Assembly (NCBI RefSeq): GCF_949628265.1
Contig: NC_088787.1
Coordinates: 2,718,501-2,782,500 of the forward strand
Direction of reading: 5' to 3'
DNA from: Cloeon dipterum
Lineage: Eukaryota > Arthropoda > Insecta > Ephemeroptera > Baetidae
DNA length: 64,000 nucleotides
Shown: piece by piece, positions 1,462 to 53,562 of the stretch
Layout of the letters: each line of letters begins with the position of its first letter
Numbering within the stretch: position 1 is the stretch's first letter
Made by a program: the position numbers and the translations under genes
Notes under the pieces: generated by a model
Databases searched by the model: none
The model's input: the letters and a program-made list of their open reading frames with translations, nothing else
Told to the model about the DNA's origin: nothing

Positions 1462-3350
1462 TTAATAGTGAATTTGAGCAACTGTGGTGTTCGCGGAAGT
1501 GGAAGGCACGGGTCCGACCTCTTCGTAAATCGGCTCGGAAGTTTCTCTCTCGCGGTTGATTGGCGTATCAGCACACATCTGCTCGTACTCCTTGTTTTTG
1601 GCGATGCGACGTTGCATTTGTTTAATTTTTCGAAACCAAAGAATCTGGGATGCGATCGAGAAGAGGCAGAAAATGTTCCAGCAGGAAAAAATTGTGTTCA
1701 AGATGAGCAGGCCTTTATATTTGGCGTCGTTCTCGCATGTTCTCATTCCCGTATCTGTGAATAAAATAATGTATGTATTTTTTGGCATGAAACTTGTGTT
1801 TCTTTTATTAGCTACTCTTGTGAACATTATTTGTATAAATTTCAATAAAACCAACTTAATTACTATGACAAAAATCTTCTACGATACCAAAATTACGAAA
1901 ATTACCTTTAGCAATCAGTAATTTTAGTTTCGAATTATTTTTGAGTGAATGCTCCAATATCCATAGATTCCCGGAGGTGTCCAAAGTAATACTCAAGTTG
2001 TTTCTCACCGTCTTCCCAAAAAATATCAAGCATAGATAATTATAAAAACATGTACCCCTGAAGACTCTGGCAATCGATTTCTGCGGGTTGAAATATTAAG
2101 ATTGACTGCCAAGGGTGATTTGGCTGTCTAACCTAATTCAACCCTGAGCAATCGATTGGCACTGGCACAAAGGGTGCTTTAATTTTCTACACCCATTACC
2201 GAATAAACCTGTTGCTCCTTAAAGGATGATCTTGTGTTCCACTTGGCAACAGAACGAGTGCTTGGAAGATTGAAATAAAGAACGCCTTGCTCGTCCATGA
2301 CCATCTTGTCGCATTTAGCGGACATGTTTCCTATCAATGTGAGCGTCATTTTCTTCTTTCCTGATCGAAGATCGGACACTGGCATGGAGAATATATTTTT
2401 GGATGAGTGGGATACGATGATGTAAAGCAATTCTCTCGCTCCCATCGGAGAAAGTGCAAGGGCTCCAACTAATTTATTCCCGATATCAACTGTCCATGAT
2501 TGATTTTTCCTTAAGCTGAAAACCACCAGAATTTTTGAGTTGGATTCAGAGATGTATGCAAACCAGTCATCGTTTGATTCATCAAGAACCAAGTCGTGAA
2601 GCCACCTTCCGCCGGAGGTATGATTGACGACCGCTTCCGGAAAGTCATGAGCGTGCACGATTTTATTGTTGTTGGTTAGGTTGAAGATTAAAAGTTTGGG
2701 TGGGCAGGTTGTTTCACCATTGTCGAGAGCCCAAAGGCGACCAGATGAGTCGACTGCAATTCCTCTCGCACTCTGCACGGCGCTACAATCGCTTGCACTC
2801 TAGAAAGATTAATATCAAATTATTCCTACTTGCTGCTGATTTCTAATATAGCTCTTTGATCGCCGGTAGAAAATACAAAGTTTAAACGATTTGGATAGAG
2901 TAATAAAGGTTCCGGATTTTTTCTTTTTAGAGTCATATCTTTTCTTGAGATAATAATATGTGTCAATTTTTCATGCGACTTTTGCATCGCTATCAAATTG
3001 AATTTTAATCATATTACCAGGCGATCGATACATAATGATTTCAAATTAATAAAAAATAAGAAAATAAAATTCCATCTTGAACTAACCTGTACTGGCGACG
3101 GAAACGGCTTCAGCTGTGGCGGTTTTTCTGTTGCGTTGATATCCAGCCACGCAAGAGTCGAGATAATGTTCGGCTCATGTTTATAAAGGCTGAGGAAGAG
3201 TTTTTCTTTGTACAAGGCGATGTACTTTGGCTCCACTTTGCTGGTCTTGTAGTCACCGGAATAGCCTATCCGATCGAGGACGGAAGAGAAATTCAGGGCA
3301 GAGGCCGCGGAGAGGCCGAGCAGCAGTGCCAACACACAGAACGGAGCCAT
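1462..3350 (-). CDS. Y1: membrane-anchored Yellow/MRJP-like protein (4 exons, 420 aa)
   Basis: Exons on the minus strand: 3350-3087, 2799-2200, 2011-1906, 1754-1462. Introns follow GT-AG in phases 0, 0 and 1 and join to 421 codons including the stop. Residues 1-18 are a signal peptide (MAPFCVLALLLGLSAASA). The Yellow domain is recognised from KLFLSLY..STLAWL, then S-D-C-S, A-R-G-I-x-V-D, G-R-L-W-A-L-D-N-G, T-C-P-P-K-L-L-I-F-N-L, W-F-A-Y-I and A-L-S-P-M. Exon 4 adds a transmembrane helix at about 338-364, then R-K and a 56-residue cytoplasmic tail with P-I-Y-E-E-V (Tyr400) and P-S-T-S-A. Yellow proteins are usually secreted, so the anchor and tail are unusual. Exon 2 appears mosaic between Y3 and Y4. 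Substrate or ligand is unknown. Family assignment is firm; exon edges are inferred. Confidence 0.85.
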
Positions 3351-4511
3351 GGCAAAACGCCGTCTGAACGAGCGATTGAAATTGTTTTCTCTCGGTTTTT
3401 TTTACACTATTTCTGATAAGTTATATAGCATAGTTCTAATTTTAATTGGAATGTAGGCGGAAATTCCGGGCACGGTTTCCTTTGATAAGTTGCAGACATT
3501 TTCACATGCGAGCCCGCAGTTGACTACTTTGGAGACAAATCCTAAATAATGAGACTTTCAACACGTGATAGGTGATAATAGCTATAGACAGTATTAGATA
3601 GTGCACTCCGTGTTTACACGAGACAAATTAATGGGCTCCTTTACAGGTATTTGTGAAAATAGCAAAATAAGTGTTCACTCTAACTTTTTGTATACTAGTA
3701 CGTTTTCAGTATAACTTTGCTTATTGTGTATACGAGTGCGTGGATATTTTATCGCCTATATTTCTGTGGTTTGATTGCCACTGGGGCGTTATCACAACTT
3801 AGCATAGCCGTGTGTGCGTCATAAATAAAAGCTTGGTTCGAATTTCGAGCCATATATGGTCATAAATTCCTATTTCCTACCATATATATAAAAACTGAGG
3901 CTATAAAATAATAATAATAAAGCTACTGTTTTTGTCTTAATTGAGATCATTAATTGTTCGGTAAAAAGGTCTATCATTGAGAATCAACAAAATATTTTTC
4001 AGCAGCGTCTAACGCTAGAAAGAAAATCCCTTTATCCCCACTGATTAAATTATTGGGTACATTTAATTAATTAAAAAACCACAAAACTTTCTTTATTTTA
4101 ATGCATGAATTTTATTGAGAGTCAAAAATTCACATTCAAGCCATATATAGTTCAATGAAGTGGATATCTTGCTGCTGCAGGACGATTCGCATATGTTTAT
4201 ATTTTAATTTGGCACTTAATTTTCTGCGCAAGTCATACGGTACTTAACGTGATCGCTGAACGGGAAGGCAGATAAAATATTTTACTAAACACTATAGAGT
4301 ATTATTAAAAATGAATAGTAAATCTGTGGCGAGGAAGTATATAGCAATTGTACATATAGATAACAACATATTGTATGAGGTTACTCATCTACAAGCATTT
4401 TAAATAAAAAAATTGTTAATTTCCGTAAATGTCAACAGAATAAAATATTTTTAAATACATAAACCACCTTCAGTGCACACTGTGAAGTTAAGAGGAATAT
4501 TGCTATGAAAA
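3351..4511. other. Intergenic, Y1 upstream region
   Basis: No gene is supported. A TATATAA on the minus strand at 3,427-3,421, about 75 nt upstream of the Y1 start codon, is a candidate TATA box. The part around 3,745-3,900 resembles 13,105-13,240 upstream of Y4 (shared TTTGATTGCCACT and TTTCGAGCCATATATGGTCA), so the upstream regions of Y1 and Y4 descend from one duplicated segment. The remainder, to the Y2 stop codon, is AT-rich with nothing recognisable. Confidence 0.5.
3421..3427 (-). promoter_or_regulatory. Candidate TATA box of Y1
   Basis: TATATAA on the minus strand, about 71-77 nt upstream of the Y1 start codon. A start of transcription about 30 nt further down would leave a short 5' untranslated region. 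No initiator element is clear, so the call is tentative. Confidence 0.3.
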
Positions 4512-6255
4512 TTACGAGTTGATTTCATCATCTGTGATGTAATCAAGTTCAATTTCTTCATAGATCTGATCGGATAGTTCACTGTACTGCACGATCATCG
4601 AATCATGCGTTGATGCGTACAATTCTTCGCGCTCTATCGTCATTTTTATATTCCAATACCAAATAATTAGGAATACCGCAGTCAAGAGGAGGTTGAACAG
4701 GTTCCAGCAGGACAAAACAATGTTCATCACAAGCAAGCTTTGTTGTTTATTGATGTCGCATGTTCCATTTCTGACCAAAAAGTATCCGGACGGAAATATT
4801 TTGGAAATGATTCGGTCTGATGGTGATTTGAATGATTTTGAGGCCTTTCCCTGATGGATTGACCCGAAAAGGCCATCATTCGAGACTGTTATAACAGATT
4901 GAAAGAAAAATAAATTAACACGAGTATTTGACTGACCATTCTTCTTGCTTTCATTGGAAACCATATTGCTAGAGATAATTAAAAAGATATTCGAATTACC
5001 TGTCACGTTTTTATACAGGTATGATCTTGTGCCGACTGCAGCCTTCAGTATTCTCATTTGCGGTTTTTGAATGGAATTATATCGAACAAAAAGCCACATA
5101 TCTCCAGACGCGTCTATGGTAAAAGAAAATGGCCAGGAATTCCTCGCCACCTCCACTCCTTCATCCTAAAACAAAAACCAATAGTCATTTCCATGGGTAA
5201 GTGCTATAAATAATCTTTAATTTCAAGTACCTGAAAAATATACTCTTCCTTCAAGGGTAAATTCGTGTCATACATTGCTATGGACTTCTTGGCCGGAAGG
5301 TCGTAGTACAGCACGCCCTTTTCGTCCATGATCATCCTGTTTGACTCGGCTGTCTTCATTGCCACTATTGTGGGCGTCACTATCTTCGCTCGTTTTCTTA
5401 GGTCTGATACGGAAATTGAGAGTATATTCTTGGAGAAGGCTTCAGTGAGGTAAAGCTGCTGTCTCATTTTCAACGGAGAGAGAGCGAGTGCTGAAATGTA
5501 AAAATCTTCGACTTCCACGCGCCATGATTTTTTCTCCTTCAAACTAAACCCCACCAGATGCTTAGAATGATAATCCACGATGTAAGCAAAGCAATCATTC
5601 TCTGATTGATCTAAAACCATTTCTTGCAGCCATCGTTTGCCGTGGAAATGCGAGACAACTGTGTCCGGAAATACGTGTACGTGTTTTATAGCGTTATTGT
5701 CAGCTAGGTTAAATATTAAAAGTTTTGCTGGACAGAACCATCTGCCATTGTCTACAACCCACAGTTGGTCGAATGGATCTACTTCTATTCCTTGGGCGTC
5801 CTGCACGGTGATGCAATTATATCTGTCCATCTGAAAAACCGTGTAAATTTGCTGCGATAGGTATATTTACTTTTACTTAGATTTTAAAAATAATGAAACA
5901 GCAAAAGAAAAAGCACAGTTTTTGAGAATGTATAGAAACGACTTTTTTAATTTCCATACTTGTATAAAAATGTTCATACCTGTTTTTGCAATGACTGGAA
6001 AGAATACAGTCTTGGAGACTTAGTTGGTGCATCAGTTTGAAGCCAAGCGAGGGTTGAAGGATAGGAAGAACCAAAATGACTTTTCAGGCTGAGAATCATC
6101 TTGTTTTTGTAGACCGCGATGTACCGAGGAATTACTGCGCTGAACTTGTAGTCGCCTTCAAACTGGCCATTCCACTCGTAAACGGTAGAGAAGTTGAGGC
6201 AATAGGCTGCCGCAAAGAGGCCGAGCAGCGCAACCAGTTTGGAGTGCGAAAACAT
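4512..6255 (-). CDS. Y2: membrane-anchored Yellow/MRJP-like protein (4 exons, 471 aa)
   Basis: Exons: 6255-5980, 5830-5231, 5165-5000, 4885-4512, phases 0, 0, 1, joining to 472 codons including the stop. It starts with a signal peptide (MFSHSKLVALLGLFAAAYC). The Yellow domain carries Q-G-I-E-V-D, Q-L-W-V-V-D-N-G, C-P-A-K-L-L-I-F-N-L and C-F-A-Y-I, and exon 3 adds F-T-I-D-A-S-G-D-M-W. A transmembrane helix lies at about 398-424. The tail is short and acidic, with YSEL (Tyr448), YEEI (Tyr456) and YITD (Tyr463), and lacks the PSTSA motif of its neighbours. The helix keeps L-S-C-W-N but not the I-L-W-F-R-K end, so Y2 is the most diverged short-tailed member. It lies between the duplicated Y1 and Y3 blocks. 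A readable frame runs through intron 3, so an unspliced isoform cannot be excluded. Confidence 0.83.
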
Positions 6256-7825: not shown

Positions 7826-9705
7826 TTAGTAGTGAATTTGAGCAACTGTGGTGTTCGCGGAAGTGGAAGGCACGGGTCCGACCTCTTCGTAAATCGACTC
7901 GGAAGTTTCTCTCTCGCGGTTGATTGGCGTATCAGCACACATCTGCTCGTACTCCTTGGTTTTGGTGATGCGACGTTGCATTTGCTTAATTTTTCGGAAC
8001 CAAAGAATCTGGGAAGCGATCGAGAAGAGGCAGAAAATGTTCCAGCAGGACAAAACTGTGTTCAAAATGAGCAGGCTTTTATTTTTGACGTCGCATTCAC
8101 ATTGTTTGATTCCCGTGTCTGTGAACAGAAATGTATATTTTGGCATGAAACTTGTGTTTCTTTTATTAGTTACTCTTGTGAACATTATTTGTATAAATTT
8201 AAATAAAACCAACTTAATTACTATAACAAAAATCTTCTACGATAGCAAAATTACGGAAATTATACCTTTAGCAATCAGTAATTTTAGTTTCGAATTATTT
8301 TTGAGTGAATGCTCCAATATCCATAGATTCCCGGAGGTGTCCAAAGTAATACTCAAGTTGTTTCTCACCGTCTTCCCAAAAAATATCAAGCATAGATACT
8401 TATAATAAAATGTACCCCTGAAGACTCTGGCAATCGATTTCTGCGGGTTGAATTATTAAGATTGACTGCCAAGGGTGATTCGGCTGTCTAACCTTAATTC
8501 AACCCTCATCAATCGATTGGCACTGGCACAAGGGGTGCTTTAATTTTCTACACCCATTACCGAATAAACCTGTTGCTCCTTAAAGGATGATCTTGTGTTC
8601 CACTTGGCAACAGAACGAGTGCTTGGAAGATTGAAGTAAAGAACGCCTTGCTCGTCCATGACCATCTTGTCGCATTTAGCGGACATGTTTCCTATCAATG
8701 TGAGCGTCATTTTCTTCTTTCCTGATCGAAGATCGGACACTGGCATGGAGAATATATTTTTGGATGAGTGGGATACGATGATGTAAAGCAATTCTCTCGC
8801 TCCCATCGGAGAAAGTGCAAGGGCTCCAACTAATTTATTCCCGATATCAACTGTCCATGATTGATTTTTCCTTAAGCTGAAAACCACCAGAATTTTTGAG
8901 TTGGATTCAGAGATGTATGCAAACCAGTCATCGTTTGATTCATCAAGAACCAAGTCGTGAAGCCACCTTCCGTTGGTCGACCGATTGACGACCGCTTCCG
9001 GAAAGTCATGAACGTGCACGATTTCATTGTTGTTGGTTAGGTTAAAGATTAAAAGTTTGGGTGGGCAGGTTAACTCGCCATTGTCGAGAGCCCAAAGGCG
9101 ACCAGTTGAGTCGACTTCAATTCCTCTCGCACTCTGCACGGCTGTACAATCGCTTGCACTCTAGATAGATTATTAAAGATCTAAATATATTCTACTTGTT
9201 GCTAATTCAAAATAGTTCTTTGAACACTGGTAGCAAATAAAATGTTTAAATGATTTGAACTGCAGCAAAAAACGTTTCTCTCCTAAAAATTTATTTGTGT
9301 TGGAAAATAATAAAGTTTTATTTTTATATGACTATACTTATTTCTGCATCGTTATCTAAATCAGAACCATAGGCGATCCATAAATGAAGATAAATTAATA
9401 AATAATCAGAAAATTCTCTCTTGAACTAACCTTTACTGGCGACGGGAACGGCATCAGCTGTGGCGGCTTTGCTGTTGCGTCGATATCCAGCCACGCGAGT
9501 GTCGAGATAATGTTCAGCTCGTGTTTATAAAGGCTGAGGAAGAGTTTTTGTACTCCTATCCAGGTACCGTGTATAACTGTGCTGGAATTAAATAAGACGC
9601 CATCAAAACCACTCGTAAAGGGAAGTGAAATTCAGCTATAGAGCGTTGGCCAAAGCCGCGCGGTAAGGCCGAACAGCTGCAGCCCAACAAATAAAACGGA
9701 GCCAG
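7826..9705 (-). pseudogene. Y3: Yellow/MRJP-like gene with destroyed first exon
   Basis: Exons 2-4 are intact and in frame: 9160-8561, 8371-8266 and 8118-7826, with the same phases and lengths as in Y1 (600, 106 and 293 nt). They encode the propeller, a transmembrane helix (LLILNTVLSCWN..ILWFRK) and a tail with S-I-Y-E-E-V and P-S-T-S-A. Exon 1 (about 9705-9431) is broken: the initiator ATG of Y1 and Y4 is CTG here (9705-9703), the signal-peptide region is scrambled by indels, and a TAG interrupts the frame. The donor at its end is kept. Either this is a young pseudogene or a different first exon is used. The open downstream exons argue that loss is recent or that gene conversion maintains them. 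No other ATG plus signal peptide was found just upstream. Confidence 0.75.
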
Positions 9706-10818
9706 TGAGAAAAATCGAGATTGGAGTTCGTGGAGAAGGTAGTTCAGTGATGATAATGCTTTTCCCCTTGTGAGAGGTTATAATGTAGTGAAAAATTCAC
9801 AACCAAGGAGCCGTGTCACAGTTATTTTATTTTTGATGCAAAATATAGAGTAATTAATTTTTTTTATTTATTTTATTTGCTTAAAATATTAATTAAAGAG
9901 GAAATAATCGCTGTTCACGCATAGGGGGAGATTAAATTTATAAAAATTCCTATAAAATAAAAATTAAAGAGAATGTGGTGGAGCATAAGCATTGGAGTCG
10001 ATAAAGAACCAGGCCTTCCTATTCATACTGATTGTGTTGTTAAAGATTAGAGGTCTCATTGTCAGCCAGCCGCGCTAGCCGACAAATTTTGGGTCCCGTG
10101 GGCAGCCATCAGACGCCGTGATTCTGGCTAAGCGGCACCAGCCACGTCAGCCGCAAGTAAAAAAGGTCAAACATTGAAAAGTGCAGAAGAAAAAAAAACT
10201 CATATGGATTTTTGGCCGTTAAGAACAATCAAAATTCACGTTAAAAATGTTATCAGCCGCTCCGGATGCCGCCGCCGGGCAAAAAAATCGGTTAAACCCG
10301 TCCAGCCAGACGCCGCCTAAATCTCGCGGCTGTGACCTCTAATAAATATAAAAATGTTATGATATGACCAGCATTGGAAATCATGAAGGTGAATTTGTAA
10401 TGTAAAACTGCTCTTATTTAATTACCAACAAAATTTTGTTTAAATTTAACGAATATTATCTCATTTTTGGGTTACAAAAAACCTTAAACATAATGTAGAA
10501 TTTTTGGTTGTTCTTAAAAGATATACATAAAAAAATATTTTATTTATTTAATATGATTTTATTTCCACCATAAAATATCAAGCAGCTGACGTAAAGCGCT
10601 ATGACGTTCAACTTTATCAACAGGAAATCAGATAAATGCTAAGCAGGGAACAAATCCATTTCATTTTACAAACAAGAATTAATTACTAATTACATTGTTG
10701 TTAAACATACAAATACAGCCAAAGTTGAATAAATTATTAGAACAATATTCAAAAATTAATTTTTATTTACAGCACTCAACTCTTGGAAGTACTGAGGAGT
10801 AATAAAAGCGTTATAAAT
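9706..10818. repeat. Intergenic, third, shorter and more diverged copy of the duplicated block
   Basis: The part around 10,000-10,810 is a diverged copy of 620-1,460 and 6,990-7,825 (shared TTAGAGGTCTCA, CAGCCAGCCGC, and ATCAAGCAGCTGACG near 10,575). About 9,706-9,990 is AT-rich with nothing recognised. No gene is supported. Confidence 0.6.
10762..10767 (-). promoter_or_regulatory. Poly(A) signal of Y4
   Basis: AATAAA on the minus strand, 52 nt past the Y4 stop codon. Confidence 0.5.
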
Positions 10819-12770
10819 TTAATTGTGAATATCAGCGACTGTAACATGTTCAATGTTCGCGGAAGTGGAAGGCACGGGTCCGACCTCTTCGTAAATCGGC
10901 TCGGAAGTGTCTCTCTCGCGGTTGAATGCCGTATCAGCACACATCTGCTCGTACTCCTTGGTTTTGGCGATGCGACGTTGCATTTGCTTAATTTTTCGGA
11001 ACCAAAGAATCTGGGAAGCGATCGAGAAGAGACAGAAAATGTTCCAGCAGGACAAAATTGTGTTCAAGATGAGCAGGCTTTTATATTTGGTGTCGTTCTC
11101 GCATGTTGGTATTCCCGTACCTGTGAACAGAAGGTATTTTTTTGGCATGAAACTATAGTGTTTATTTTTATCAAGCTCTTGTAGAAAATATTTCGTGATA
11201 GCAATAAAACCAACTTAATATTATAACAATAAAACAAAAATCCTTCACGAAAAGAAAGTTATATGAAAATCACCTTCAGCCTTCAGTAATTTTAATTTTG
11301 GTGTATAATTGAGTGACTGCTCCAATATCCACAGATTTCCCGAGATGTCCAAAGTAACACTCAAGTTGTTTCTCACCGTCTTCTCAAAAAAAAAAAAAAA
11401 AAACATATAAACCACATAGATATTAACAATAAAATGTACCCCTGAAGACTGTGGCAATCGATTTCCGAGGGTTGAAATATTAAGATAGACTGCCAAGGAT
11501 GATTCGGCTGTCTAACCTATTTCAACCCTCAGCAATCGATTGGCACTGGCACAGGGGGTGCTTTTATTTTCTACACCCATTACCGAATAGACCTGTTCCT
11601 CTTTAAAGGATGATTTTGTGTTCCACTTGGCCACAGAATGATTGCTTGGAATGTTGAAATAGAAAATGCCTTGCTCGTCCATGGCCATCTTTTCGCATGT
11701 AGCGGACATGTTTCCTATCGATGTGAGCGTCACTTTCTCCTTTTCTGATCGAAGATCAGACACTGACAAAGAGAATATTTCCTTGAAGCCGTACTCCATG
11801 ATATAGAGGAATTCTCTCATTCCCATCGGAGAAAGTGCAAGTGCTGAAACTAATTTACTCCCGATTTCTACTCTCCATGATTGATTTTTCATCAAACTGA
11901 AAACCACCAGATTTTTTGAGTGGAATTCAGAGATGTATGCAAACCAGTCATCATTTGATTGATCAAGAACCAAGTCGAGAAGCCACCTTCCGCCGGAGGT
12001 ATGATTGACGACCGGATCCGCAAAGTTATGAACATGCACGATTTTATTGTTGCTGTTCAGGTTGAAGATTGAAAGTTTGGGAGGGCAGGTTGTTTCGCCA
12101 TTGTCGAGAGCCCAAAGGCGACCAGATGAGTCGACTGCAATTCCTCTCGCACTCTGCACGGCGCTACAATCGCTTGCACTCTAGAAAGATTATTATCAAA
12201 TTATTCTACTTTTGCTGCTGATTTCTAATATAGCTCTTTGATCGCTGGTAGAAAATATAAAGTTTAAATGATATAAATCGCGGCAAAAAAAGTTAGTAAA
12301 ATATTTATTTTTTTGAAAATGATGTCTCCTAAAAATTAAATTTGTGGGGATGCGAAAGTAGAGAAATAATAAAATTTTATTTATCATATGAATACTTTCT
12401 GCATCGTTATGTACATTGGATTTAAATCAGAACCACGGTTGATCAATGATGAAGATAAATTATAATAAATAATCAGAAAATTCCGTCTTGAACTAACCTG
12501 TACTGGCGACGGGAACGGTTTTAGTTGTGGCGGCTTTGCTGTTGCGTTGATATCCAGCCACGCGAGAGTAGAGCTTATGTTCGGCTCATGTTTATAAAGG
12601 CTGAGGAAGAGTTTTTCTTTGTACAGGGCAATGTACTTTGGCTCCACTTTGCTGGTCTTGTAGAAGTCTCCAAACTTGTTTTCGTCATTCCACACGTTGA
12701 TGGTAGAGAAATTGAGGGCGGAGGCCGCGGAGAGGTCGAGCAGCAGCGCAAACACACAGAACGGAGCCAT
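10819..12770 (-). CDS. Y4: membrane-anchored Yellow/MRJP-like protein (4 exons, 425 aa)
   Basis: Exons: 12770-12498, 12180-11584, 11379-11274, 11120-10819, phases 0, 0, 1, joining to 426 codons including the stop. The third exon could start three bases earlier (11382), because two AG dinucleotides follow the poly-T tract, adding one lysine. Signal peptide MAPFCVFALLLDLSAASA, then the Yellow domain (A-R-G-I-A-V-D, G-R-L-W-A-L-D-N-G, C-P-P-K-L, W-F-A-Y-I). Exon 4 encodes a transmembrane helix (LLILNTILSCWN..ILWFRK) and a tail with P-I-Y-E-E-V (Tyr402), P-S-T-S-A and a C-terminal V-A-D-I-H-N that is shared with Y7. Y4 is close to Y1 in exon 1, in the 5' part of exon 2 and in intron 1. Its 17-base poly-T tract before exon 3 may make splicing or copy number unstable. 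Confidence 0.85.
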
Positions 12771-14139: not shown

Positions 14140-15263
14140 TTAAAGCTGAGTTTCCTCAAGGCTAGATGGCACTACTTCAGAATCCGTGGCGGGAGGTTTT
14201 GGATCGGCCTCTACCCCCTCCACGGCCAAATCTGGAGCAGGAGTTTCGGCAGGCGGAGTAATGGCAATGGAAGGAGTGGCAGCGACGGCATTGGTGGCGG
14301 TGGTGGTGGTGGTGGTGGGGGCCTCAGCATCATCGAGGAGAAGTTTTGTTTCCGGGGCAGTTACGTCATCATCCCTTTCCGCATGCGCAGGAGTCGGCAA
14401 GGAGGGAAGATCGACTTCTTCCTTATTGTCGAGGCCTGGAGAGGGGGCCTTGAAAGTGACGTAACTGCACGACTCCTGCTGGGTGGGAGACGCGGAGTCG
14501 GTATCCACGTCCAGCGTAAGAAAAAAGGGGTCGTGTTTGACGTCACTGATCGACGGATTATCGGTCTGGATTTCGTGGTATTCACCAATCTCTTCGGGAC
14601 ATCCGGCCATTTCCTCGATGTCGTCTCCCGACTTCAACTTTTTCAGCTTGGCGACGAGCCAATAAATGACGGATCCCATGAAAAGGAAGATGAACACCAT
14701 GATGAAAATGAGAACGCCGTTCGCGGAGTTGCCTCCTTGGCAGTCTGCTGCAAGGCTTGCATTTTTTCCTACGCCGCCGTAACTGGCTCCCAGCACTAAT
14801 CCGGTCGTTGTCGATCTTGTTCCGGCTCGGATCGAGGAAGTGTTGTTACCGTTATCGTAGGCACGGTAGGGCGTTGTCGGCTCTGCTGTGACCGGAAGTG
14901 GAGCAGTCCAAGGTTCAGTTTCGGTTGAGACGACAGTGGTTGATGTCCCATTTTCATATGAAGTGTCAACGTTTCCCTCGGTTGGGGTAGTAGCCCCAGT
15001 TGGTGGATCTGGGTGGACTCCTGGTGGAGTCCCGGTGGATTCAGTGTTATTTCCCTCTATGCCTTGGGGAGGGTTTGTCTCTAAAGAGGTAGACGGTGGT
15101 GTAGTCGTTTCATTGCCAGGTGCAACGGATTTAACTTCCGTGGACCCTCCATTGTCAGTTGAATCGGTCAGGGTTGCATTATTCTCCATCTGCTCACTCG
15201 GCAAATTAGGGTCGGCACAAGCCAATAACGTGGAATTAACACTTACTTTTTTATGTCGACCAG
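14140..15263 (-). CDS. T5: mucin-like single-pass membrane protein or terminal exon (about 374 aa)
   Basis: One long open frame ends at 14140. The first in-frame ATG is at 15189 (349 aa) but gives no signal peptide, so the frame is more likely a terminal exon. A possible acceptor (GCTCTAG) would start it at 15263 in phase 1, the same phase as the last exon of the Yellow-like genes. Numbering from there, residues 1-180 are rich in Thr, Ser, Pro, Asn and Gly with many N-x-[ST] sites, a mucin-like stalk; about 183-205 is a transmembrane helix; then L-K-K-L-K-S and a long acidic tail with EYHEI (Tyr229) and SYVTF (Tyr268). The tail shares L-[KR]-K-[LM]-[KR]-S...E-E-M and the Y-V-x-T...P-S-P-G-L arrangement with Y9. 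No Yellow exons were found between it and Y6. Gene content upstream is unresolved. Confidence 0.6.
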
Positions 15264-16143
15264 CTAGAGCCGCAATCAGAACATGTTGCTTACGCAAGTT
15301 TCGCCTTCTAAATCAGCGTGCACACGGAAATTAGTTTTCGTTATTTCGCTTTTGATAAATTATTATTTATAAATAGAAAGAAGTGTGTATAAGTCCCGTA
15401 TCGACTGCGATATAAAGCTCACGCAATTCGAACCAGACTCCAAAGAGGGATACTGATAAATTTTGTATCAAGGGGTCTCAGCCGCGTGAGTTAAGGCGGG
15501 GGCTGGCACGGCTGAAATATTTTAAACAGGAGGTTTGATAGAGCTGAACACGGCACAAAGGGCCGGAAGACCCTTTTTTACCGACTGGCGGCTGCACACG
15601 TAACCCAAAATTTGCCGGCTGAGGATTTTTTAATGTTAGAAATCATTGAAAAATACTTGATTTGTGGCGCTCGCGCGGAGAAAGAAATTGCGCCTTAATT
15701 TCGACCAGGAAATTTTTCCCTATGTTAATATCCGGTGCTTTTGATTGCATACCAGCCGCCAGACCTTTCAAACAGAGCTTTATCGGCCCAATACGTCACA
15801 GAAAGGAAATTCAAGTGGGCAATAATAAAAAAAAATCCAATTTAATTTAGAAATTTGGGAAGCGTCATGCTTCTATACTCATTCTTGTACTTTTCGACCT
15901 CCTCTTTTAGGTAGTTTAAATGTAATTATTTTTTCGATAAAGAAAACAGCTTGATTGGAGTAGGTAATGAGCAATAATTTGTTTATTTAGATAAATTATA
16001 GTTGTACACACGTTTTATATTGTTAACTGAGGCTTTTTAAAACCCACAAAATTTTTAATTATTTAACAGCACACAACACACGACTTTAATTAACATCTTG
16101 GTTCTAGACCGGATGTAATGAAAGAAAAATCAATAAACAGCCT
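15264..16143. other. Intergenic between T5 and Y6
   Basis: About 15,660-15,960 resembles 20,120-20,420 on the same strand (shared GAAAGAAATTGCG and ACGTCACAGAAAGGAAAT). These are the downstream flanks of Y6 and Y7, so each gene was duplicated together with its 3' region. Around 15,408-15,416 the minus strand has CTTTATATC, a weak TATA-like site for T5. An AAAAAAGTAAGTG at about 15,243-15,255 looks like a 5' splice site and could belong to an untranslated leader of T5. Confidence 0.4.
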
Positions 16144-16144
16144 T

Positions 16145-16243: not shown

Positions 16244-18417
16244 TTAGATTATCGGAGCAGCACGCAATTGTTCGCGCTCCTTCTTGGTCTTTTTGATCGA
16301 GTCTTGCACCTGTTTCATCTTTCGGAACCAAAGGATCTGGGATGCGATAAAGTAGATGCTGAAAATGTTCAAGCAGGACAAAAGTGTGACCAAAATGAGC
16401 AGGCCTATGTAGATGGCGTCGTCGTCGCAAGTAATGGTTCCTTTGCCTTTTTGATTTTCAACTGGAGCAGGCGTCGTTAGAGTCGTAGTTTCCGCTTTAC
16501 TTTTCGGCGAGGACGTTGTGGTTGATGAAATTTTTCTATTACAATTTTTTGCTGTCAATTTTGAACGTATGGAAGACGCACGCGTTACCTTGGACGAATT
16601 TGTACTGCGCCATGAGATTTTGCCAAGGTAGATTGTGAGTTATTTTTAGAAGTGTTGTTTTCAGTGGATTGGCAAGTACTTTTTTCTCCGCAGGCTGCAA
16701 TTTTTAACAAGATAAGTTTAAATAACTAAAAATAATGATTTTTCTAAATTACGCACTCTAGAAAATACTGATTTAATCTAATTTAAGAAAAACGTGGTAT
16801 TTAGAGTAATAAAACTCACCATATTGGCTTTTGTACAGATAAGAGGAAGCTCCAACTCGGATCTTTAATAACTTGTATTCTCCATATTTGTAGATCATCA
16901 TCCACATACAGCCACACGTATCCGCGACAAATGTAATAGGCTTCTTATCACGTGGATTATCAAGGTCCTAAAGCATTTTTTGATATCAATATCCACGCTT
17001 AAACTGCGAGGGAAAAATCTTCATGTGAATTTTAAAAAGGAAGTAAAATATTAACAAAGTATATCAAAATAAATATCTTTAATTATTATGTCGGTGCCAT
17101 TTTTCTTGAGGGGAAATCAATTGTTTATTAGTTGAATATTAGAAAACACTTAAAAGATCATGCGATATTTATAATTTTAATTTATTTTGGAAATTTCTTT
17201 ATTTGATATGTATTAAATTTCTTCTACTTACCTTAAAAAAGCATTTTGGCTTGAGATCAGAGAACACAGTTACGTCATCAGCGACCACGTAGTCAACAAA
17301 GCCCTGACGGCTCTTAGGAAGAAATGCAGCATAGAGAACTCCAGCACTGTCAAATTGCATTCTAGTGCAATAATCATCAGACCAGGAGCCGATTCGTTTC
17401 CAATTCTTATTTTGACTTTCATCCCTTAAGTGAACCACAGGAATCACATAAAGTTCTTTGGTTTCGTATAGGCTGAGGTACAGTTCTTGTTTTTTGGGGT
17501 TAAGGGCAAGGGCTCTAAATTTTTTCCCCGGGAATTGCAAGGTCCAAGATTTGTCCTTGTTCAGATCAAACACAATAAGGTGATCAGAAACGAAGTTCGT
17601 GATGTACGCAAACCAGTTATCCCGCGTCTTGTCCAATACCAAATCACTCAGCTCCTTTTTATTCCTAGAGAAGACCGTGTCAGGGAACTGATGTACTTTA
17701 ATGGCCTCGTCGTTGTTGGCGAGATTGCAAATCCAGAGCTTGGCCAGACATTTCTCATTCCCTTTGTCTAGCACCCAGATGCGGCCGAGTGGATCGACTT
17801 CCAAGCCCCTGGGGCTCGAAATGGTGTTACACTCTCCCTGATTCAGCAAAAAATGTGACGCTTTTTATGATAGGAATACTAAACATCCAAATTCAATTAG
17901 AAATATGTATCGATTGAAAAGAATAAAGAAAATAAATGTCTTTGAATTTGCCATTTAAAATAAATTTTCGCCTCATGCCACAAAAAAAAAGATTTAGGAA
18001 ACTATTCATAATCATGCACGAACTATAATTCCTTTTAGTATTAATAAGACTTACGAAAGAGTTCTTGGGCTGAAACGGTACAAGTTTTGGCGGTGGAGAC
18101 GACTTATGTTCAGTGCTGATTGGCAGCCAAACTAAGGTCGAGGTTCCAGGAGGAAGTTCTAGGCTGATGAAGAGTCTCTGACCGTAGATTGCCAGGTACT
18201 GAGCTTGAACTTTCTCAGATTTGTATTCGCCCTTCAACGCTCTTGCACTGCTTCCCGCCTCCGACAAACTTAGCTCAAAATTTTTCCACTTGTAGACGAC
18301 AGTTACGTTGACAGAGTCCGATGAATGCGTGCAATGGCTGCTCCGTATTGAAACTGCACTTCCAATCATTGCACCCGACAGGCAAAGCAGCAAAGTCAGC
18401 CAAAACCACGCAGCCAT
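16244..18417 (-). CDS. Y6: membrane-anchored Yellow/MRJP-like protein, tail truncated (5 exons, 504 aa)
   Basis: Exons: 18417-18055, 17837-17232, 16967-16820, 16694-16589, 16535-16244, phases 0, 0, 1, 2, giving 505 codons with the stop. Start chosen at MAAWFWLTLLLCLSG, a clear signal peptide; upstream is an untranslated exon. The Yellow domain has V-Y-K-W-K, R-L-F-I-S-L, E-C-N, R-G-L-E-V-D, G-R-I-W-V-L-D-K-G and W-F-A-Y-I. Compared with Y1 there is an extra small exon (16694-16589) coding a Ser/Thr/Asn-rich stalk, and exon 5 begins with another Ser/Thr stretch, so the domain stands further from the membrane. The helix is followed by I-L-W-F-R-K. The frame stops at TAA 16246-16244, before the tyrosine motif that remains in frame downstream. 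Y6 and Y7 are a duplicate pair with the same structure. Confidence 0.82.
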
Positions 18418-18527
18418 CGTTAAAGAAGGCTGAAATAAAAGCAAAAAAAGCTATCGTCTGAGTGCGAATGGGCGGAAATTAACGCTCTTAGAAAATCATA
18501 AAATAAATATCAAACCAGACAACATAC
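18418..18527 (-). other. 5' untranslated intron and leader of Y6
   Basis: On the minus strand a donor AAAG|GTATGT ends a leader exon at 18528 and an acceptor TTTATTTCAG lies at 18432-18430 region, followed by 12 nt of leader before the Y6 ATG. Y7 has the matching donor (exon end 23116) and acceptor (23003-23001). A conserved, spliced 5' leader is the simplest reading. Confidence 0.55.
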
Positions 18528-20572: not shown

Positions 20573-22988
20573 CTAATTATGAATATCAGCGACCGTGTAT
20601 GACGCGGAAGTGGACGGCAGCGGCTCCACTTCTTCATAAATCGGCCCGATTTCTTCATACACCGGCTCGGAAGTGTCTGGTTCTGGTTCGCTTCCGCGGT
20701 TGGTTATCGGAGCAGCGCACATTTGTTCGCGCTCGTTCTTAATTCTGGTGATCGAGTCTTGCCTCCGTTTCATCTTTCGGAACCAACGGATCTGGGATGC
20801 GATGGAAAAGAGGCAGAAAATATTCCAGCAGGACAAAACGGTGTTCAAAACGAGCAGACTTTGGTCGCAAGTACGGATTTCTTTGCCAGGCGTCGTCGGA
20901 ATCGTAGTTTCCGCTTTACTTTTCGGCGAGGACGTTACGGCTGATGAAATTTTGCTACAAAAATTGTTTGCTGTAAATACTGCACGTATAGCAGACACAC
21001 GCGTTACCTTAGAGGACTTGTTACTGCGCCATGAGAGTTTGTCAAGGTGGATTGTAAGTTATTTTTAAAGGTGCGGTTTTGAGTAGATTGACACGTACTA
21101 TTTTCTCCGCACGCTGCAATCATTTTTTTAAAGGTTAGTCACCTCTATAGCCACCAATATAAAGCGTTTATAATAAATTAAGGTTGCTATGCTATAGCTT
21201 TTTTGATTTGCAAAAGGCCATTTTAAGTGAACAAGTACATATATGATGAGTTCAATTTACAACAATTTTCAAGGGCACTCTATACAAGAATTACAATTCC
21301 CACCTAATTTTTGAAAAGAAAATAATGGGTTGCTTACAATTAGTCATCTAACTCTGTAAAACTCACCATATTGGCTTTCGTGCGGATACGAAGAAGCTCC
21401 AATGCTGATCTTTAGTAACTTGTATTCGTTGATTTTGTAGATCATCATCCACATACAGCCACACGCATCCACGACAAATGTAATAGGCTTCTTATCTCTC
21501 GGATTATCAGGGTCCTGAAGCATTTTTTGATTTCAAAATTCACGCTTTGACTGAGAGAAAAAATCTTTATATCCATTTAAAAAAGGTAGTAAAATATTTA
21601 CTATGATGTTTATTAAAATACAAATCTTTAATCTTTATTTGGGTGCCTTTTGTCATGAAGGGGAAATCAATTGTTTAATATAGTTGAATACCTATACATG
21701 CATCAGAAAACACTTAAAAGCTAATGCAACATTAGTGATTTTCATTCATATTGGAAATTCGTTGATTTGAAATGTTTTAAATTTCTTATACTTACCTTAA
21801 AAAAGCATTTTTGCTTCAGATCAGAGCCTACAATTACGTCATCAGCGATGGCGTACTCGACAAAGCCCTGACGGCTCTTAGGAAGAAAGGCAGCATAGAG
21901 AACTCCAGCACTGTCAAATTGCATTTTAGTGCAAGAATTATCAGGCCAGGAGCCGATTCGTTTCCAATTCTTATTTTGACTTCCATCCCTTAAGTCAACC
22001 ACAGGAATCGCATAAAGTTCTTGGGAGTCGTGCTGGCTGAGGTACAGTTGTTCATTTTTGGGGTTAATGGCAAGGACTCCAACTTTTTTCCACGGGAATT
22101 GCACGGTCCAAAAATTGTTCATGTTCAGATCAAACAGGATAAGGTGCTTAGAATCTTTGTTCGTGATGTACGCAAACCAATTATCCTGCGTCTTGTCCAA
22201 TACCACCTCACCCAGCTCCTTTTTATTGCTAGAGAAGACCGTGTCAGGGAACTGATGTACTTTAATGGTCTCGTCGCTGTTGGCGAGATTGCAAATCCAG
22301 AGCTTTGCCGGACAATCCTTATTACCGTTGTCTAGCACCCAGATGCGGCCGAGTGGATCGACTTCCAAGCCCCTGGGGCTCGAAATGGTGTTACACTCGC
22401 CCATGTCCTGATTAAAAGGAAAATGTGACACTTTTTATGTTACTCAACATTCATATTCAACTGGAAATATATCGATTGAAAAGAATAATAAATGAATTTC
22501 TTCTATTTGCCATTATTTAAAAGAAATTGTCACCTCATGGCAAGAAAAATAAACGACTATTTTGGAAACTACTCATAATCATGCACGAATTATTGTACTT
22601 AATTTAGTATTAATATATGACTTACGATAGAATTCTTCGGCTGAAACGGTACAAGTTTTGGCGGTGGAGACGACTTGTGTTCAGTGCTGATTGGCAGCCA
22701 AACTAAGGTCGAGGCTCCAGTACGCAGTTCTAGACTGATGAAGAGTCTCTGACCGTAGATTGCCAGGTACTGAGCTTGAACATTCTTTGAATCGTATTTA
22801 CTTTTCAACGCTCTTGCACTGCTTCCCGCCTCCGATAAATTTAGCTCAAAATTTTTCCACTTGTAGACGACAGTTACGTTGACAGAGTCCGATGAATGCG
22901 TGCAATTGCTGCTCCGTGTTGAAACCGCACTCCCAATCATTGCTCCCGACAGGCAAAGCAGCAAAGTCAGCCAAAACCACGCAGCCAT
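20573..22988 (-). CDS. Y7: membrane-anchored Yellow/MRJP-like protein with doubled tyrosine motif (5 exons, 536 aa)
   Basis: Exons: 22988-22626, 22407-21796, 21514-21367, 21113-21008, 20954-20573, phases 0, 0, 1, 2, giving 537 codons with the stop. Signal peptide MAAWFWLTLLLCLSGAMIG. The Yellow domain matches Y6 closely (R-G-L-E-V-D, G-R-I-W-V-L-D-N-G, C-P-A-K-L-W-I-C-N-L, W-F-A-Y-I). Exon 4 is a small stalk exon starting A-C-G-E. The helix is at about 443-468 and is followed by R-K. The tail carries two motifs seven residues apart, V-Y-E-E-I (Tyr509) and I-Y-E-E-V (Tyr516), then P-S-T-S-A and V-A-D-I-H-N. Y7 is the intact partner of Y6 and shows what Y6 has lost. The doubled motif seems to be an in-frame duplication within the tail. 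Confidence 0.85.
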
Positions 22989-25149: not shown

Positions 25150-26719
25150 TTAATATCTGGTCTCGCAAAGCGCAGAAGTGGAAGGAAAAGACTCGATTTC
25201 TTCATAGATCGGATCTGGAGAGTCTGTTGATGCGCGGTTTGTTGCATCACGACGCTCTGCTTTCTTGATTTCGGCGATCGAGTCTTGCGTCTTTTTAATC
25301 TTCCGGAACCAAAGAATCTGCGATGCGATTGAAAAGAGGCTGAAAACGTTCCAGCAGGACAAAACGATGTTCAAAAAGAGCAGAGGCTTGTTGTCACAAT
25401 AAGTGTCGTTTACACCGTGTGCTGACAATTCGGGGTTTTTATCTGTTCCAAAAATTGTGGTTCGTGCAGGAGCGGTTGGAATTGTAGGTGAAACGCAAAT
25501 TCCGCCGTTTCTGCAAACTAGAGTTAAAGAATTATTAATTGATAAAATATAGTCTGAGAAGCTCACCTTGTGAGGCGTTTGTCGAAAAAGAATTGTCGCC
25601 GATTGGAATTCTGAGCAGTTTGTGTCTTGATGGCTTCCATGTCTTATAAACCATGATCCACATAATTCCAGATGTATCCAGGGCAAAAGTGAACGGTGTC
25701 CTAGCCAAATAATCACCGCCATTCTGAAAATTTATTATATAAATTTGCTGAAAAAAAAACACATAATAACTCTACCAGAAAGAATCGATTCTTATTAAGT
25801 TTTTGAGCATTCCAGGTTTCGATGTATGTTTGTTTCAAAAAGGCAGCATACAGAACTCCACTATTGTCGAATAGCATTCTATAGCAGTTTACTGCCTGCC
25901 AGGAAACAATCCGGTTAGGGTGTTTAATTGAAGATGTAGTTTTCAATATCTCAGTGGAAATCGAATAAAGTTCCTTGGAGTCGAACTGGCTAAAGAACAG
26001 CTTTTTCTCCAAAGAGGAAAATGCGATTGCTTTAAATTTCTTCCACTCGGAACATACAGTCTTCGAACGTCTATTATTCAGGCTGAAAACTATGAGGCAT
26101 TTAGATTCAGATTCATGTGTGATATATGCAAGCCAGTCGTCCTCTTGTGTCTTTTCCAGAGCAATATCGTACAGTTCCAAGGATTGATTAAACTGGTAGG
26201 AAAGTTCAATACTGTCGCCATGGACCAGGTTGAAAATCCAGATTTTAGACGGACAATTAAAGCCACTGTCAAGCACCCAGAGGCGGCCAAGAGCGTCCAC
26301 TTGCAGACCCTGGGCCCACTGAATGACTCTGCAGTTGCCTTTTTCCTGTTAATTAAGATAAATATTTTTATACGATTCATTATGAAAAATTATTGTCTTA
26401 GAAAGCTAACGTTCATTTCCAAGGATGGATATGGTGTGAGCTTTGGAGGCGCCGGACCAGACGTAATGGCGGTTGGAAAACTGACCAGGGTCGAGGGAGC
26501 AGACCATCTTTGATAGAGACTTAGGAAAATCCTCTCTTCATACACCGCTAGGAAATTGGGCCTTAGATCGTCAGGCTCGAATTTTCCTCCTCCTTTAAAA
26601 TATTTTTGCTTGCTCTGCTCAGAGGGCCAATTAAAATCGAATTCATCCCATTCATAAATGGTAGAAGTGTGAGCGAAGGGCAGGCTGAGCAAAAGGGTCG
26701 TAAGGAGGAATCGGTCCAT
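25150..26719 (-). CDS. Y8: membrane-anchored Yellow/MRJP-like protein (4 exons, 467 aa)
   Basis: Exons: 26719-26411, 26345-25776, 25723-25567, 25517-25150, phases 0, 0, 1, joining to 468 codons with the stop. Introns 1 and 2 are only 65 and 52 nt. Signal peptide MDRFLLTTLLLSLPFAHTS is followed by I-Y-E-W-D-E-F and R-I-F-L-S-L-Y..P-S-T-L, the closest match here to the canonical Yellow N-terminus. Then L-Q-V-D, G-R-L-W-V-L-D-S-G, C-P-S-K-I-W-I-F-N-L and W-L-A-Y-I. Exon 4 opens with a short Cys loop (CRNGGIC), then a Thr/Pro stalk, a helix at about 391-416 (L-S-C-W-N..I-L-W-F-R-K) and a tail with D-P-I-Y-E-E-I (Tyr450) and P-S-T-S-A. The tail ends C-E-T-R-Y, unlike the V-A-D-I-H-N of Y4 and Y7. 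Confidence 0.84.
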
Positions 26720-27757
26720 ACTCCTAATTTTATGAGTCTAGCTGTAACGAATTAAAAAATCAAATTATTATCAGTATAATTATAAAATTAGTTTTTAAGT
26801 TGTAGTTTTATTTATTTCACCAGGGTCCGGATTGCGATCTGTGTTGGTTCCCGCCGGTCGGAAGTCAATATGGCGTCGAAATTTATAGTTATTTGAATAT
26901 TCACCCATTTCGAAGCTGCGCAGTAAACTTGTGCGCATCTTAAACATGCGCAGTAAGCTTAGATCGCTTCTTAAACTCACAGGGAGGCTGAAACTCATCA
27001 CTGCGCACGCGTGACCCAAATTGAAACCTTCTGCGCATCCAAAATTCCCACCTGGGGCTGGGTTGCGATCTGTGTTTTGGTTCATAATTTTGGAAATAAT
27101 GGCGGCCAATCAGGAGACAGTCCAGCGGCCAATCAGAAGCGTCGAAAAATAGGCGTGCCGGCCTAATAATTTCATTCCCGCCTATTTTGTTACATTTCCA
27201 TCGGCCTGATGTGTCATTGAACGGTCAATTCACCAATTACTAAAGAAATAACAACACAAATATTCATTCGTGGTTTGTAATTTTCCCGCCGTACACTCTA
27301 CCAGACGCCATAAGTGACCGTCGCGTGAATCCGGACCCCGGTGATTTGTTTAATATAATAATTATGGGCACTACTCACCGTCTGAATAATGTGTAAGTTT
27401 TGATTAAATTGCAGCAAAATGAAAATTTCACCATAGAGTCGGCGGCTGAATGCTTGAACCGGAGGCACGAACTGGATACCGTCGACTGCGGTGGAGAGTG
27501 TATGTGTAAAAACAGACAGGCCAGCGCTTAATGCCAAAACAAAATACCGCAATGATAACGTACGCTTTCCTGTTTTGACGCGAATAAAGAGCCGGCCGGA
27601 CGCTCTACTCTCGTCGTGCATCCGCTCTCACAAAAGACTTCTTATTTTTATGCTGCTAATTTCATTGATTTTTGCTGATAAATGTATTTTAATACATTTT
27701 TAAAATTAAAATCATGAATAGACAAGATAAATTTTAATTTATTGTTAACAACAAAGT
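26720..27757. other. Intergenic between Y8 and Y9, with a mobile-element copy
   Basis: 26,818-27,343 is the second copy of the MITE-like element. 27,344-27,757 is the 3' flank of Y9, AT-rich at its right end, with no gene recognised. Confidence 0.5.
26818..27343 (-). mobile_element. Non-autonomous element, copy 2, with terminal inverted repeats
   Basis: The ends are CACCAGGGTCCGGATT (26,818-26,833) and AATCCGGACCCCGGTG (27,328-27,343), an imperfect 16-bp inverted repeat with one mismatch. The interior matches 13,371-13,905 in reverse orientation. No transposase is encoded. Two CCAAT boxes occur in its part around 27,110-27,135. A clear target-site duplication was not seen. Confidence 0.65.
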
Positions 27758-29408
27758 TTATGCCAAGACTTGAAGGTATAGCGCCTGTTCGGAAAATTCT
27801 GGTGCAACGTTTTCGTAATTATTTTCCAGTTCTGGACCTTCGATGGAAGTTTGCGGCCCAGATCCACTACTCAAATGCATTAGGGGTTCCTCGTACAGCC
27901 CCGGAGAGGGAGGTCCGGTGGTGACGACGTAATCGTAGTGCATGATTTCATCGTCCCGCTCGAGAGCAAGCAGTGAATCAGACTCAGGTCTGACGTCATC
28001 ATAGAGAGGAGATTCTTGCCGGAAGATCGTCATTTCCTCGGTCTCGCTTTGACTCCGCATCTTTTTTCTTAGATGACAGCATACAATAAGTAATGCAGTC
28101 ATCGTTACAAGGGTGATGATATTCGTGAAAGCTAAGGCGATGACCAGAACGGAACCTGAATTGCTGCTGACTTGTGGACCGCCTGAGGTGGGGTCAATGA
28201 TACTATTCTTTCCTTTTCTTGTTGAACCTTCCCGGAAAGATATATATTTTTACTATTATAAGAAATAATAACATTCACAGCAAATCGCACCTGTAGAGTA
28301 CAAGTAGGAACCATTGCTGACTCGAGCCTTGAGTAATTTTAATTTCGGCTTCTGCTCGGAACTCTCCATTACCCAGAAATTGCCTGATGCGTCCACGGTA
28401 AAGCTTGTTAAGTTGTTTTTTACACTTTCAACCTGGAAATAGACAAATTAAACACGAAGTATTTTTTCCTCCTTGAATATTATATACCATGTAAAGCTGT
28501 TCCTCCTTAAAGGGTGCGTTTGTGTCCCACTTGAACACAGAATGCTTGTTCAGATTAAAGTAAAGATTGCCCTTCTCGTCCATGGTCATCACAGTAGCTG
28601 ACCAATAAGTAGAAGTGGATTGGCTGCCTTTCAAAGTGAGCGACGCATTTTTCACTCCAGCTCGAAGGTCGGCCACTGGCAAAGAGAATATTTCCTTGGA
28701 GTCCCATTCACTGATGTAAAGAAGTTGTCTCGTCCTCATTGGAGAAAGCGCAATTGCTCCGATTTGTTTATTCTCGATTTTGACTCGCCATGAATAGTTT
28801 CTCTCAAAGCTGAAAACCACTAAATGTCTTCCAAAGCTTTCCGCGATGTACGCAAACCAGCCATTTTCTGACTGGTCCAGAACCAGGTTGAGCAGCCACC
28901 TTTTGCCGTTGGTATTAGACACCACTTCATCCGCAAAGTCATGGATTTGCACGATTGTATTGTTGTTGGTCAGATCAAAAATCAAGAGTCTTGGAGGACA
29001 GGTATATCCGCCGTTGTCGAGAGCCCACAGGCGACCAATCGTGTCAACTTCAATCCCTCTCGCACTCCGCACCCGCACGGTGCTGCAATCTGTCGTGCTC
29101 TAACAAAAATATCAGCATTTAAACTTGAATTAAAAATGTCTATGTCTGACCTGGATTGTCGATGGAAAAGGTTGAAGCGTCGGCGATGTTGCGTTGATGT
29201 GCAGCCAGGCGAGAGAGTATTGAACGCCCTCAAAACCGTAAAGACTCAGGAACAGTTTTTCTTCGTACACCGCCAGGAACCGTGGGTCAACTTTGCTGCT
29301 GGACTTGTAGTGGACACCGAAATCGTCACTCCACTCGAGGACGGAAGTGAAGTTCAGGGCGTTGGCACAGCCCGCAAACACCAATATCAGCAGACAGGAT
29401 GGAGTCAT
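27758..29408 (-). CDS. Y9: membrane-anchored Yellow/MRJP-like protein with long multi-tyrosine tail (4 exons, 493 aa)
   Basis: Exons: 29408-29151, 29099-28488, 28432-28291, 28227-27758, phases 0, 0, 1, joining to 494 codons with the stop. The acceptor of exon 4 (GGGAAG) has a weak pyrimidine tract but is the one that keeps the frame. Signal peptide MTPSCLLILVFAGCANA, then V-L-E-W, K-L-F-L-S-L-Y, R-G-I-E-V-D, G-R-L-W-A-L-D-N-G, T-C-P-P-R-L-L-I-F-D-L and W-F-A-Y-I. The helix is at about 363-388, followed by L-R-K-K. The 100-residue tail is unrelated to the short tails of Y1-Y8 and has five tyrosine motifs: YDDV (413), YDYV (435), YEEP (449), YENV (475) and YLQV (488). YENV fits the Grb2-type pYxN pattern; the YxxV motifs also fit AP-2 sorting signals. 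The tail shares motifs with T5. Confidence 0.84.
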
Positions 29409-53538: not shown

Positions 53539-53562
53539 GTGAGTCGAATTCATTTTTTCTTC

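Follow-up and report, generated by a model that had tools for sequence, protein, structure and literature searches.

To our knowledge, the characterised members of the Yellow/MRJP family are secreted proteins with neither a transmembrane helix nor a cytoplasmic tail, and an insect usually has about ten to a few tens of such genes. Recognition in insects is thought to rest on few germline genes together with Dscam splicing, with Dscam1 and the FREPs known as expanded surface-recognition sets. Here we describe a stretch of 64,000 nucleotides from the mayfly Cloeon dipterum (the window; C2:2718501-2782500; the genome totals 190.1 Mb, five of its contigs measuring 33-43 Mb and another five less than 1 Mb) that contains a cluster of Yellow/MRJP-like genes, Y1 to Y8, in which a last exon adds a membrane helix and a tail to the ectodomain. 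On balance we think it probable, from sequence, that the window belongs to a Yellow/MRJP family expanded in tandem, many of whose members are type I phosphotyrosine-signalling surface receptors. Tyrosine motifs (Y[DE][DE]V/I, YxxV/I/L) number one to six in the cytoplasmic tail of most anchored members seen.

The window genes were modelled by spliced protein-to-DNA alignment in which GT-AG sites were scored, with Y1 and Y6 read by eye. All Y genes lie on the minus strand with their heads to the right, spanning 29408 down to 1462. The usual gene has four exons, the first encoding the signal peptide and first strands, the second being the propeller exon of 190-205 codons, the short third encoding the last strands, and the fourth a stalk, the transmembrane helix and the tail. 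Introns are GT-AG in 11 models (Y1, Y4, Y8 and eight from elsewhere in the genome) and have phases 0,0,1 in 10 of these. The four window propeller exons that were scanned (Y1, Y2, Y3 and Y5) all match Pfam MRJP with E values of 6.1e-17 to 3e-27 (Y2 1.5e-21; Y3 2.5e-26; Y5 6.1e-17). The spliced Y1 protein matches the same profile (PF03022) with E 3.3e-26 and 92.7 bits, and the protein of locus L039, also on C2, with 78.3 bits, the cut-off being 19.8; Pfam listed no EGF domain in either. A profile built from ten full-length family proteins (A2) in turn matches MRJP1 with E 3.4e-34 (5yyl), a dopachrome conversion enzyme from an insect with E 3.1e-24 (9w1k) and the salivary LJM11 with E 1.2e-9 (3q6k). 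For the first two the alignment covers most of the propeller (profile positions 24-305 for MRJP1, and 4-201 and 208-343 for 9w1k). By these profile matches the ectodomain is that of the Yellow/MRJP family. The likeness to dopachrome conversion enzyme and MRJP1 also speaks for another explanation, in which Yellow-type enzymes or binders (of dopachrome-converting, amine-binding or lipid-binding kind) are secreted or membrane-tethered at a cuticle or gut surface and the tail, where there is one, merely sorts or anchors them. We consider this decidedly unlikely, as a mere anchor needs neither multi-tyrosine tails nor several tail types on similar ectodomains, and about 280 paralogues exceed the need of a single enzyme activity.

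Topology was assessed in 12 translated proteins chosen for having the last exon. Strongly hydrophobic stretches were seen at the N-terminus (above threshold in 10 of the 12) and in a single C-terminal helix (all 12), which is followed within 15 residues by two to four lysines or arginines; N-glycosylation sequons number 3-9 before the helix and 0-2 after it. All 12 last-exon proteins therefore differ from the secreted, anchorless form expected of the family, although the expansion as a whole is mixed. In Y1, Y4, Y7 and Y8 the sole strongly hydrophobic stretch past the N-terminus is the last-exon helix, with four lysines or arginines in the next 15 residues. An earlier note, made from the letters of this DNA, had proposed that a signal peptide and a Yellow domain are followed by one transmembrane helix and a tail with tyrosine motifs, and this architecture is confirmed by the spliced models, the Pfam MRJP matches and hydrophobicity. 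The note had also read the genes as surface proteins with a cytoplasmic tyrosine tail, not secreted pigment or jelly proteins. For the window genes this is supported because exon order and phase are kept, because a C-terminal helix is followed by positive charge and preceded by the sequons, and because the tails are rich in Yxx[VIL]; the helix is presumed to be inserted in the membrane. It holds less generally for the wider family, many members of which have no detectable membrane exon.

The count of seven intact genes and one broken gene in the earlier note has to be revised to six open genes (Y1, Y2, Y4, Y6, Y7 and Y8), two damaged ones (Y3 and Y5) and one orphan tail exon. Exon 1 of Y3 has no open frame or ATG despite a close match to Y1, and Y5 retains its helix with an in-frame stop before its YEEV. 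The propeller exons of Y4 and Y3 are 79% and 95% identical to that of Y1. As to the tail motifs, the P-[IV]-Y-E-E-[VI] that had been described is present in Y1, Y4 and Y7, and also in Y6, with SIYEEV in Y3 and QIYEEI in Y2, and PSTSA follows the motif in Y1, Y3, Y4 and Y7, and also in Y6; neither applies to Y8, which has a different and longer tail (SPLYDDV, HYDYV, GLYEEP, NYENV, LYLQV).

Long tails measure up to 154 residues, with up to six Yxx[VIL] motifs, and follow, with variation, the consensus EYDDVGP..VPLYEEVK...PPSPGLYEPPI.LSPRSARRVKAMPERPRTFEEFGEAP...EYDYV...EPLYDEVAPEPS...SAQYLKVLP. The basic and proline-containing stretch LSPRSARRVKAMPERPRTFEEFGEAP is conserved between the two tyrosine blocks of long tails (e.g. 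L039, L043, L044). Among 22 tails, 68 of the 99 tyrosines that have three residues after them are Yxx[VIL], compared with a mean of 16.8 and a maximum of 31 in 2000 free shuffles. Most of these tails had been gathered by a filter requiring one Yxx[VIL], and a second set of shuffles was hence required to keep one or more in every tail; these gave a mean of 29.5 and a maximum of 37 in 500. With four motif-less tails (L034, L035, L036 and L038) added, free shuffles gave 17.0 against the same 68 (maximum 30 of 2000). Pairs of the form YxxV-x6-8-YxxV occur 13 times, as against 0.3 in free and 0.5 in forced shuffles (maximum 3 of 500). When one tail was taken from each of six classes, uncorrected for tail selection, the motifs numbered 18, where shuffles gave 4.7 (0 of 5000), and the pairs at a spacing of 6-12 numbered 4, where shuffles gave 0.24 (2 of 5000). 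In eight long tails, four of six tyrosine columns are invariant, compared with 41 of 110 other columns.

Src-family SH2 domains prefer phosphorylated YEEI-type sites, and an SH2 ligand typically has acidic residues at +1 and +2 and V at +3, which is not typical of an AP-2 signal. The Src-family ligand pattern Y[ED][ED][VI] is found in 20 of the 22 tails, so that the SH2 reading put forward in the earlier note appears to fit the sequence. Its other suggestion, uptake through AP-2, fits less well given the acidic +1 and +2 residues, the up to six motifs and their ITAM-like pairing (ITAM, immunoreceptor tyrosine-based activation motif). Scavenger or endocytic receptors, whose YxxPhi tails would recruit AP-2 while the propellers capture cargo (e.g. 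in gut or haemolymph) and any phosphorylation is incidental, would account for the one to six Yxx[VIL] per tail (most tails having been collected by that motif), and an expanded family suits a diversity of cargo. Against this, most of the motifs sit 30-150 residues from the membrane, there is one acidic dileucine in the 22 tails and NPxY occurs in none of them, and the residues at +1 to +3 point to SH2 ligands; we regard an endocytic role as unlikely. The immunoreceptor tyrosine-based switch motif (ITSM) is likewise present in 0 of the 22 tails.

The ratio of non-synonymous to synonymous substitution rates (dN/dS) was estimated over the 21 pairs of seven long-tailed genes, an eighth (L041b) being omitted as its tail is barely alignable. 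Ectodomains have ratios of 0.33-0.58 and tails of 0.28-0.89, the window pair Y1-Y4 having 0.46 and 0.53 respectively; values below 1 suggest purifying selection on both halves. The synonymous rate (dS) is lower in the tail than in the ectodomain in 20 of the 21 pairs, as expected if tail exons have been homogenised or exchanged. The two halves also differ in their relationships. Identity in ectodomain and tail, in that order, is 57% and 22% between Y1 and Y8, 33% and 43% between Y1 and Y7, 61% and 27% between the neighbours L041a and L041b, and 55% and 83% between L039 and L043a. From the incongruence of Y1-Y8, Y1-Y7 and L041a-L041b, tail exons seem to have been exchanged or converted between paralogues.

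The family extends far beyond the window. Two propeller exons were used as queries, with 150 of 376 and 150 of 374 candidates scored, and all counts are consequently lower bounds; the 150 matches of the first search were merged with 148 of the 150 listed for the second, two partial ones being omitted and two further matches unlisted. At least 278 distinct near-full-length propeller exons were obtained (C2 251, C1 15, C5 9, C3 2, C4 1), with an in-frame stop in 3 and none in 275. At least 238 lie in a 5-Mb block of C2 (0.344 to 5.351 Mb), where the median distance from one to the next is 5.2 kb. Identity to the query in the first search is 57-72%, excluding the query itself, and these matches are therefore not assembly duplicates of it. 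Tails were sought with a 185-residue piece of the last exon of L039 and with the short last exon of Y1, giving 99 and 17 matches that resolve to 104 loci, all on C2. Within 1.5 kb of the 251 C2 propeller exons, a tail match lies downstream on the same strand in 70 cases, upstream on the same strand in 5 and on the opposite strand in 2. A largely silent array, growing by unequal crossing-over and with few genes expressed, would explain the broken Y3, Y5 and orphan tail exon and the stops in 25 of 116 tail matches. It is set against 275 of 278 propeller exons free of in-frame stops, dN/dS below 1 in both halves and splice sites kept in the models, and we hold it to be very improbable. At C1:18.954-18.990 Mb there are more typical Yellow exons, where matches of equal score recur about 10.37 kb apart, either from a duplication in the very recent past or because the assembly contains the stretch twice.

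How many of these genes are anchored was estimated from loci L026-L041 (C2 0.38-1.46 Mb), which were picked solely by propeller match and hold 27 propeller exons. Of these, 22 could be assessed, being followed by 1.5 kb or more of sequence or by another gene, and five were set aside as cut; L043-L045, fetched for their tail matches, and L020, which adjoins the window, stand outside this count. Tails with Yxx[VIL] were found in eight of the 12 membrane exons seen there (L026, L027, L031, L032, L039, L040, L041a and L041b, the last being among the five cut exons). In L034, L035 and L038 the last exon retains a hydrophobic helix with a short tail lacking Yxx[VIL]; these could be tail-less partners or decayed genes. 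On C3 a relative, L004 (C3:14510456-14514085), has a family-like propeller exon and a last exon that, read to its stop, ends in DATSNSLAIATLLFSVLTTVSSF, with no transmembrane helix and tail. This C-terminus looks like a glycosylphosphatidylinositol (GPI)-anchor signal, a likeness that favours tethered enzymes or binders. A route from secreted Yellow through a GPI-anchored to a transmembrane form is possible, with L004 as a candidate for the founder type, judging from this one locus.

Several of these results weigh against a family of phosphotyrosine-signalling receptors. A last exon was found by homology in 9 of the 22 assessable genes, or 11 with the helices of L035 and L038 recognised by eye, so that no membrane exon was detected in 11-13 of 22 (at least about half of the array genes sampled), which is also a point in favour of secreted or tethered enzymes; four of the 12 membrane exons (L034, L035, L036 and L038) have tails lacking Yxx[VIL], and on C1 a last exon accompanies 0 of 6 propeller exons (5 assessable). 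In-frame stops interrupt 23 of the 99 tail matches from L039 and 2 of the 17 from Y1, as against 3 of 278 propeller exons, and tails seem, by these counts, to decay or to be cut short far more often than propellers, being lost while propellers stay open. Constraint is weak in some tail pairs (dN/dS up to 0.89), and the paralogues in the shuffle test are not independent of one another. The strict ITAM (YxxL/I-x6-12-YxxL/I) is present in 0 of the 22 tails, rising to 11 when V is allowed at +3, and a loose form of the inhibitory motif, ITIM ([SIVL]xYxx[ILV]), is present in 9, a raw count without chance control; any signalling could hence be of either sign. An immune role, lastly, would rest on analogy. 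The anchored share in the sampled loci and the tail stops lower our estimate for signalling receptors and raise that for enzymes or binders.

Signalling receptors nevertheless remain the reading that we favour. With many diverse ectodomains and several exchangeable tails, ligand-triggered phosphotyrosine signalling would be the simplest mechanism. The diversified propellers would bind ligands outside the cell, and clustering of the receptors would lead Src-family kinases to phosphorylate the tail. SH2 proteins (Src-family, Shark/Syk-type and adaptors) could then dock on YxxV sites, single or paired. Insect kinases of this kind include Src42A and Src64B as well as Shark, which has two SH2 domains and reads the tail of Draper. 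Swapping of last exons would put different tails (long multi-tyrosine, short with a single YEEV, tyrosine-poor or truncated) on similar ectodomains, so that sensors alike in specificity would differ in output, as paired receptors do, and members lacking the membrane exon would serve as soluble counterparts. The role would be one of recognition, most likely immune. More tentatively, and with rather less confidence than we place in signalling as such, the Yellow propeller may have been turned into a diversified recognition system, in which hundreds of tandem genes combine, by shuffling, variable ectodomains with tails that are activating-like, short or devoid of tyrosines, together with soluble forms, as an insect counterpart of vertebrate paired immune receptors that signals through Src-family kinases and Shark.

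Features of the cluster, in window positions
Feature	Span	Strand	Exons	Remarks
Y1	1462..3350	-	3087-3350, 2200-2799, 1906-2011, 1462-1754	420 aa; GT-AG, phases 0,0,1; tail SEPIYEEVGPVPSTSA
Y2	4512..6255	-	about 5980-6255, 5231-5830, 5017-5150, 4512-4770	Open; exon 3/4 borders uncertain; tail SDQIYEEIELDYITDDEINS
Y3	7826..9549	-	8561-9160, 8266-8371, 7826-8118 (exons 2-4)	Exons 2-4 open; exon 1 remnant 9357-9549, no frame/ATG
Y4	10819..12770	-	12498-12770, 11584-12180, 11274-11379, 10819-11120	425 aa; tail SEPIYEEVGPVPSTSA
Orphan tail-type exon	14140..15312	-		390-codon open reading frame; Ser/Thr-rich stalk, transmembrane helix, long tail with EYHEI, SYVTF
Y5	16244..18417	-		Propeller and transmembrane exons; in-frame stop in tail ahead of YEEV; exon borders approximate
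Y6	20573..22988	-	22626-22988, 21796-22407, 21367-21514, about 20573-20940	Last exon approximate; tail SEPVYEEIGPIYEEVEPLPSTSA
Y7	25150..26719	-	about 26411-26719, 25771-26345, 25567-25700, 25150-25421	Exon 2/3 borders uncertain; tail DPIYEEIESFPSTSA
Y8	27758..29408	-	29151-29408, 28488-29099, 28273-28432, 27758-28170	480 aa; long tail with YDDV, YDYV, YEEP, YENV, YLQV

No propeller exons of its own were found upstream of the orphan exon, which has no Pfam match and few tail tyrosines. A candidate exon in intron 1 of Y1 and Y4, LNFVFSTGDQRAILEIS, was rejected, as in Y1 there is no AG directly ahead of it and the phase is kept when exon 1 is joined straight to exon 2. In both genes intron 1 retains a short open stretch, alike in the two, that reads LNF[VI]FST.DQRAILEISSK on the minus strand (Y1, 2829-3008; Y4, 12199-12426). 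Rfam gave no match in the window or in the 11 loci scanned. A search for COX1 yielded a single weak fragment; in the genome 5 matches to 7tm_6 receptors, which point to an insect, were obtained, and one match to odorant-binding proteins (OBP), of which the mayfly genome paper reports 191 (PMC7250882). Adjoining the gene cluster, at 38852-49502, is a tandem satellite of about 153 bp with some 67 copies in its main part, and a second satellite field at 53560-64000 has units of about 66 and 223 bp on AAACTCTGCT...AGCAGAGTT, its plus strand being strongly pyrimidine-biased. The starts of C1, C2 and C5 (the chromosome-end loci L011, L012 and L014) look AT-rich and repetitive; a search of the whole genome for TTAGG/TTAGGG gave one 15-base match (TTAGG x3), no more than a reversed control.

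No description of a membrane-anchored Yellow family was found in an open-access library, searched at the level of titles and abstracts with subscription journals mostly outside the search. In the parts consulted of a study reporting Yellow and dopachrome conversion enzyme genes in molluscs, brachiopods, rotifers, copepods and lancelets, no anchored form is mentioned and 'transmembrane' occurs only in a reference title and a figure legend (PMC6678240), and the main text of the mayfly genome paper contains neither 'yellow' nor 'royal jelly' (PMC7250882). On this showing, the membrane-anchored Yellow proteins look like an undescribed family of cell-surface receptors. If so, some 280 mostly open propeller genes and about a hundred tail loci would place it among the largest receptor-like families of insects, and a fold known from pigment, saliva and royal jelly would have found a new use.

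The family can be set beside four known systems. With Yellow/MRJP proteins (PF03022; 5yyl, 9w1k, 3q6k) it shares the signal peptide and a profile match over most of the propeller, but here many members have a transmembrane helix and cytoplasmic tail, and there are at least 278 propeller exons. The phagocytic receptor Draper/CED-1/MEGF10 of animals has an EGF-like ectodomain and an NPxY motif and is encoded by one gene and not an array, its tail being read by Src42A and Shark. It is similarly an invertebrate single-pass receptor with a tail of YxxI/L type; the mayfly family differs in its propeller ectodomain, in the lack of NPxY from all 22 tails and in forming an array. Dscam1 and the FREPs share with it a large diversity of extracellular recognition domains, although here the diversity comes from genes that number in the hundreds, with tail exons that appear to have been exchanged, and not from alternative splicing or secreted lectins. 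The vertebrate paired, ITAM- and ITIM-bearing receptor arrays (KIR, Siglec, LILR) differ in having immunoglobulin or lectin domains in place of a propeller, and in the mayfly tails the +3 residue is mostly V, with no strict ITAM or ITSM in the 22. These arrays nonetheless resemble the mayfly family in their tandem arrangement, single transmembrane helix, tyrosine-bearing tails, similar ectodomains joined to different tails, and exchange between paralogues.

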